In this document: positions 52,709 to 55,627 of the stretch, in pieces | Layout of the letters: each line of letters opens with the position of its first letter | How positions within the stretch are numbered: the stretch's first letter is position 1 | Assembly: GCA_020072565.1 (NCBI GenBank) | Contig: JAIQGI010000001.1 | Span: 124,001-188,000, forward strand | Origin: Terriglobia bacterium | GTDB taxonomy: Bacteria > Acidobacteriota > UBA6911 | Length of the DNA: 64,000 bases | Direction of reading: 5' to 3' | Translations under genes and position numbers: made by a program | Notes under the pieces: model-generated | What the model saw: the letters and a program-made list of their open reading frames with translations, nothing else | What the model was told of the DNA's origin: nothing | Databases searched by the model: none

Positions 52709-54526
<1,818 letters not shown>

Positions 54527-54629
54527 GTGCGGAAAAGGAACAGTCCGATTTTCCGGTGCCTCTGCTCAAATGACCCCATGAGGAGGGGAAAATTGCCGCG
54601 TCCCCATTTTGTTCGAGGAGAGAACCGTA

Positions 54630-54776
54630 ATGTCTGATTTAGTCTGGCTGCTCATCGTTCTGGGGGCGTGGATCGTCCTGACGCGTTGGGTGCTTCCCCG
54701 CTTTGGCGTCGCCACCTGAATGTCCAAGAACTCATGCAAGGTCGAGTCTCGACCTGACAAAGGCACCGGGCAGTAG
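54630..54776 (+). CDS. Small membrane protein, possibly a UGA-selenocysteine protein
   Basis: ATG 54630 follows GGAG by 9 bases. Without recoding it encodes 29 residues, MSDLVWLLIVLGAWIVLTRW followed by VLPRFGVAT, one transmembrane helix with a basic cytoplasmic-side turn. The stop is TGA at 54717-54719, and the same frame continues 18 more codons (MSKNSCKVESRPDKGTGQ) to TAG at 54774-54776. The residue pattern, Thr-(UGA)-Met-Ser...Cys-Lys-Val, resembles small membrane redox proteins with a Cys-or-Sec motif. A hairpin GGTCG-AGTCT-CGACC at 54739-54753 begins about 19 bases after UGA, with G in the apical loop's second position, as bacterial SECIS elements have. The selenocysteine reading is inference. 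Confidence 0.5.
54739..54754 (+). promoter_or_regulatory. SECIS-like hairpin after in-frame TGA
   Basis: AGGTCG and CGACCT form six pairs around AGTCT. The loop starts about 25 bases after the TGA at 54717-54719. The E. coli fdhF SECIS loop, as I recall it, has GGUCU within a similar stem; here the loop is AGUCU. There is no T run, so it is not a typical terminator. Confidence 0.4.
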
Positions 54777-54829: not shown

Positions 54830-55627
54830 TCACACCCGCCCGAGCATCCAATACCAGATGTAGCCGAGGTATTCGTGATATGCCCGCTGGAGGTAAACCA
54901 GCCGATCGGTCGATGGCTGGACCAGACCCTCCGCGAGTCTGCCTGCCCATGCCGGCCATGACATTCCGGCCGGGTAATGCTGCGCGGCCCAGATGGCGGC
55001 AGGCGCGGCGAGCGGTCTCATCCCCAATCTGCGCGCCACGGCCGTTGCCCGCCGCAGATCGCAGGCGGAGGTGACGAGAATGAACGGCGTCGTTCCAATT
55101 ATTTTCTTCAATTCCACGAAGTTTTCATAGGTGGTTTGCGAGCGGCTTTCGAGGACGATATCCGTGTCCGGAACACCCAGAGTTTTGCTGAAATCCCCCA
55201 TGAGGCTTGCCACAGGTTTGTCCTGCTTGTGCACGACTCCCCCCGAGAAGACCAGCTTTGCACCGGGCAGTTCGCGATAAAGCCGGATACCCTCGACCAT
55301 CCGGGAGATCGTCTCACCTGAGAGCCTGCTGGTTACAGGGACAAAGGGATAATCCTCTCCATATCCCGACAGCACCACGACTGTCCGGACGCCTGCCGAA
55401 GCATAGGGATGCAACATTGCCGGAAAAGGACGCTCCAGGTGGGCCACCAGCACCTCGGCGAGCGGGGTGAGCAGCCAGATCATGCAGAGTCCCGCTCCTG
55501 CCGGAATCAGGCGGCGCCACACGCGCCAGTGACGCCGAGACCCTGCCAGCAAACCAATCGCAAAGCAGATGATCATGATTCCGACCGGAGAAAAGCAGGT
55601 CTCGAGCAGACGTTTCACAAGAGTCAT
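54830..55627 (-). CDS. ElyC/SanA/YdcF-family membrane protein (DUF218)
   Basis: A 265-residue protein with two N-terminal transmembrane helices (about 13-32, 38-55) and the DUF218 domain: 'VRTVVVLSGYGEDYPF', 'LVFSGGVVHKQDKP', 'ESRSQTTYENFVELKKI' and 'ILVTSACDLRRATAVARRLGM'. In E. coli, ElyC and SanA influence envelope integrity and undecaprenyl-linked precursor use; the chemistry is unknown. The C-terminal tail about 215-265 is Trp/Tyr-rich. Ahead of ATG 55627 no strong ribosome site is seen. The redoxin gene lies upstream on the same strand, 69 bases away. Confidence 0.88.
   Translation of the reverse strand: MTLVKRLLETCFSPVGIMIICFAIGLLAGSRRHWRVWRRLIPAGAGLCMIWLLTPLAEVLVAHLERPFPAMLHPYASAGVRTVVVLSGYGEDYPFVPVTSRLSGETISRMVEGIRLYRELPGAKLVFSGGVVHKQDKPVASLMGDFSKTLGVPDTDIVLESRSQTTYENFVELKKIIGTTPFILVTSACDLRRATAVARRLGMRPLAAPAAIWAAQHYPAGMSWPAWAGRLAEGLVQPSTDRLVYLQRAYHEYLGYIWYWMLGRV

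Follow-up and report, generated by a model that had tools for sequence, protein, structure and literature searches.

We report a 48-residue selenoprotein gene, identified by comparative sequence analysis, at positions 54630 to 54776 (forward strand) of the window, that is, of the whole 64,000-nucleotide stretch of DNA that was analysed. Its in-frame UGA (54717-54719, forward strand) is very probably decoded as selenocysteine (Sec, residue 30), making the product a small membrane selenoprotein, because 126 homologues carry TGA at the same site, two carry a Cys codon there, and a hairpin following the codon covaries in the family. The original prediction had inferred this recoding. It is now supported by the TGA and Cys homologues, a tail kept past the UGA, the covarying hairpin and the presence of Sec machinery, and on such comparative grounds the selenoprotein status can be regarded as close to certain.

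Gene structure and homologues

The gene starts with an ATG at 54630, which is preceded at a distance of 7 nt by the Shine-Dalgarno-like sequence GAGGAGAG (54615-54622, forward strand), as read from the DNA. Twenty-nine codons lead to the TGA, and the frame stays open beyond it through MSKNSCKVESRPDKGTGQ to a TAG at 54774-54776, 54 bases past the TGA, so that translation with TGA as U gives MSDLVWLLIVLGAWIVLTRWVLPRFGVAT-U-MSKNSCKV and onwards to the TAG. The coordinates, the in-frame TGA and the open frame had all been described correctly beforehand. The 5' neighbour is thiC (52760-54526, forward strand; Pfam PF01964 on the L017 copy, E = 2.2e-192), located 103 nt before the selenoprotein gene; this adjacency is probably fortuitous, as different genes flank most homologues. 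On the reverse strand, a convergent ORF of 265 aa with a hydrophobic stretch at its N-terminus occupies 54830-55627, and is perhaps of the DUF218/ElyC-SanA type.

A 36-residue protein query detected homologues in 49 of 199 relatives (E <= 0.1), nearly all of them with an in-frame TGA exactly at the Sec site, and a 25-sequence profile matched in 96 of 396 genomes from the phylum. Genome contigs were also scanned with a degenerate DNA pattern in which the Sec site could be TGA, TGC or TGT. Among the matches listed (at least 80 loci) 79 had TGA and one had TGC, and the records containing them were labelled Deltaproteobacteria, Geobacter, Acidobacteria, KSB1, Planctomycetes, Armatimonadota, Spirochaetes, Verrucomicrobia, Cyanobacteria, Thermodesulfobacteria and others. 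Matches in two genomes, G124 and G185, were discarded as spurious, there being no matching protein in the G124 region. At least 128 distinct homologues were collected by these searches, 126 with TGA and two with a Cys codon in its place. Cultured carriers are among them, such as Citrifermentans bremense (L125) and Desulfocicer vacuolatum (L090). The two homologues with Cys in place of UGA are L170/L192 from genome G206, which has TGT and reads MRWVLPAMGIGT-C-MSGACKVP, and L072, which has TGC.

The homologues do not end together at the UGA; the tail is kept, mostly as M-S-x-[SA]-C. In the main subfamily the sequence following the UGA is U-M-[SA]-x-[SA]-C, and its amino acids are maintained while the codons vary, with Ser at U+2 switching between AGY and TCN and Cys between TGC and TGT. 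Such synonymous changes with kept residues are as expected from selection on protein. Residue counts from the pattern-scan loci are biased, as the scan pre-selected Met, the W-S codon and Cys; among the members obtained by protein or profile search, Cys was found at U+5 or U+6 in 31 of 50. In the window copy this residue is Cys36 (codon 54735-54737, forward strand; TGC or TGT in the U-M-S-x-x-C subfamily), at U+6, and in most family members it lies at U+5. A second subfamily (L193-L210, mostly short loci of the phylum) has TGA at the site followed by U-[AG]-V-P-x-P, without a Cys nearby, and the downstream Cys is also absent from L020 and L043. The constant feature is thus Sec itself, and a pairing of Sec with the downstream Cys cannot be a universal mechanism.

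SECIS-type hairpin and selenocysteine machinery

According to the bacterial SECIS rule (PMC13188914), the loop is of 3-9 nt with G in the first two positions and lies 16-37 nt from the UGA, the stem is of 4-16 bp, and the minimum free energy is <= -7.5 kcal/mol. The window hairpin (54739-54755, forward strand) fits this rule, with a 7-bp stem (54739-54745 paired with 54749-54755) and the loop GUC (54746-54748). Counted from the UGA, it is 20 nt to the start of the hairpin and 26 nt to its loop, which agrees with the distance and the G-containing loop of the original prediction. In isolation the hairpin does not stand out (z = -1.47; 19 of 200 shuffled sequences fold as well), and the window by itself would therefore not prove recoding; homologues were needed. 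A rule-fitting hairpin at <= -7.5 kcal/mol was present in 76 of the 126 TGA members, as against 24 of 630 dinucleotide shuffles and, for neighbouring ORFs that end in an ordinary TGA stop, 18 of 224. In the other 50 members no uninterrupted hairpin satisfied both the rule and the energy cut-off, the scoring covering stems without bulges. In an alignment of 26 sequences, strong compensatory changes were seen in every pair of the stem: double changes occurred in 7/7 pairs, with 45 double-change cells compared with 14.4 +/- 3.0 in shuffles, and the covariation score of 0.599 dropped to 0.07-0.29 in slid versions. Neither of the two Cys genes has a hairpin meeting the SECIS rule. A rho-independent terminator was considered and rejected, as no U-run follows the hairpin and none was found by the terminator scan, and no Rfam family fits.

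The host genome (7.46 Mb, 98% complete, 3.8% contamination) contains all four of selA, selB, selC and selD, for which the original prediction had proposed a check. One tRNA-Sec with anticodon TCA (selC) was found, together with two SelB over the curated cut-off, two SelA and two SelD. Contig C19 carries one selB-selD-selA set as a cluster (selB at 227772, selD at 230350, selA at 231471; C19:227772-232814). The other SelA, SelB and SelD copies are scattered, Sec genes being present on contigs C3, C13, C23 and C25 besides C19, and the doubling could be due to duplication, transfer or contamination of the assembly (3.8%). Among the 199 genomes, selB was detected in 47 of 50 family carriers (Fisher p = 7e-6, an optimistic value since related genomes are not independent). 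In two of the three carriers without it, G088 and G145, selA is present along with a selD that contains an in-frame TGA, and in G145 a short selB-like fragment lies at the end of a contig; the third, G153, is 64% complete. The Cys-carrying genome G206 (99% complete, same phylum) gave no selA match and only below-cut-off paralogues of selB and selD.

If the UGA were an ordinary stop, the product would be a 29-residue membrane peptide and the hairpin a terminator or a chance fold. The insignificance of the window hairpin on its own speaks for this, as does the occurrence of comparable hairpins at about 8% of ordinary TGA stops. Against it, the codon is TGA, not TAA or TAG, in frame and at one position across many phyla, Cys substitutes for it, the protein past it is kept with synonymous codon change, and the hairpin covaries and lacks a terminator U-run; an ordinary stop is therefore very improbable. 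Reading of the UGA as another amino acid, such as Trp, or by general readthrough would account for the open frame, and nothing further was found in its favour. The substitution by Cys in homologues, the co-occurrence of Sec machinery and the covarying SECIS make this the least probable reading, with a barely appreciable chance of being right. In the favoured interpretation as a selenoprotein, SelB and tRNA-Sec would decode the UGA (codon 30) under the direction of the SECIS hairpin located 20 nt 3' of it.

Membrane topology, gene neighbourhood and possible function

An AlphaFold2 model built with a 54-sequence alignment contains one helix, predicted to be a single transmembrane segment, over residues 2-25 (codons 54633-54704, forward strand), with pLDDT of about 86-92 over residues 1-20. 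The tail after the helix has no secondary structure in the model and is of low confidence (pLDDT about 57). On average the C-side carries 4.5 K/R, and the N-terminus 0.27 K/R and 0.87 D/E; these charges favour a predicted N-out/C-in topology, which would place Sec at the cytoplasmic membrane face. The segment preceding Sec is conserved as L-P-x-x-G-[VI]-x-T.

For analysis of the neighbourhood, adjacent same-strand genes (n=69) were compared with control genes more than 2 kb away at the same loci (n=138). The adjacent genes gave matches to Thioredoxin (5/69), DUF302 (5/69), Rhodanese (3/69) and C_GCAxxG_C_C (2/69), none of which was among the top-listed domains of the control (at most 2/138), headed by transport and regulator domains. 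Clusters with thioredoxin, DUF302 and rhodanese/CoA-disulfide-reductase-like genes were found in several lineages, always on the strand of the selenoprotein gene, and at about 17 of 109 loci one such redox gene lies within roughly 300 nt. The link to redox neighbours is only suggestive, because most loci, including the window with its thiC neighbour, have no redox gene alongside. In L021, L023 and L041, which belong to a single bacterial family (f13), the start of a thioredoxin-like gene lies inside or just past the selenoprotein tail, an arrangement that suggests translational coupling. A SufS-like cysteine desulfurase is encoded upstream in L031, L041, L042, L044 and L045.

Our best guess for the function, to which we give about an even chance, is a membrane-anchored, thioredoxin-linked selenol redox protein acting as a reductase or peroxidase. 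The N-terminal helix would cross the membrane with the N-terminus outside, the L-P-x-x-G-[VI]-x-T segment would set the selenol at the cytoplasmic face, and beyond it would extend a flexible, charged tail that usually carries a Cys 5-6 residues past Sec. At the membrane surface Sec might react with an oxidant, disulfide, persulfide or related sulfur compound; a selenenyl-sulfide could then form between Sec and the downstream Cys or another thiol, and Sec could be regenerated by thioredoxin or a related reductase. The original prediction saw a membrane-anchored redox motif in the residues around the UGA, which is plausible, but less certain; the downstream Cys is absent from the second subfamily.

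The main rival to a redox mechanism is a selenoprotein that is not an enzyme: either a micropeptide for binding or delivery of selenium or a metal(loid), or else a component serving a membrane complex as small subunit or regulator, with a Sec that would bind a metal or selenide at the membrane face. The very small size without a folded domain, the non-universal downstream Cys, and the RND efflux, ArsR-type or ArsD genes found at some family loci are in keeping with such a role. However, thioredoxin, DUF302 and rhodanese/disulfide reductase genes are the ones that recur closest to the family, and Sec is normally reserved for redox catalysis. The two non-enzymatic versions, taken jointly, are considered rather unlikely.

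Relation to known selenoproteins

Most known bacterial selenoproteins are thioredoxin-fold proteins or large metabolic enzymes. Up to 54 members of the present family were searched against NCBIfam (June 2026) and Pfam, and no model matched with E below about 0.01; a profile search of the PDB returned a chance match only (E = 0.56). A 2026 catalogue (PMC13188914, Table 1) lists 119 bacterial selenoprotein families or subfamilies, none of which, judged by description, combines a single helix, a length of about 50 residues and the motif LPxxG[VI]xT-U. The catalogued proteins resemble the family in having a UGA followed by a SECIS hairpin, Cys homologues and, often, links to thiol redox genes.

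The closest likeness in predicted layout is to SELENOK and SELENOS (PMC10650576), which cross the membrane once and carry Sec in a flexible C-terminal tail on the cytosolic side. Cys variants of these proteins occur in some lineages, and a reductase function with the Trx/TR system as electron donor has been proposed for them. Those are eukaryotic ER proteins with Gly-rich tails, whereas the window family is bacterial, about 50 residues long, and would have Sec directly at the membrane face. The likeness is a layout analogy only and no homology is claimed; a Pfam scan gave no match.

The literature on small selenoproteins and searches with motif strings, the latter a weak test in which most matches were to unrelated words, yielded no prior description, and an unpublished or closed-access account is possible. 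The family is likely to be new. By the same reckoning we probably have here an undescribed and very widespread group of single-helix membrane selenoprotein microproteins with Sec at the interface and two C-terminal subtypes, clipped or skipped by annotation; the earlier expectation that annotation would miss the protein or clip it to 29 residues fits our judgement of the family as a whole. Among the selenoproteins of uncultured bacteria, these may be some of the smallest and most common. That a costly Sec system is spent on one residue at the membrane surface, in many phyla, suggests that a selenium-dependent process at the inner membrane has gone unrecognised. Small selenoproteins are missed by selenoprotein catalogues and gene callers, and the LPxxG[VI]xT-U motif combined with a SECIS provides a sharp handle for finding proteins of this kind.
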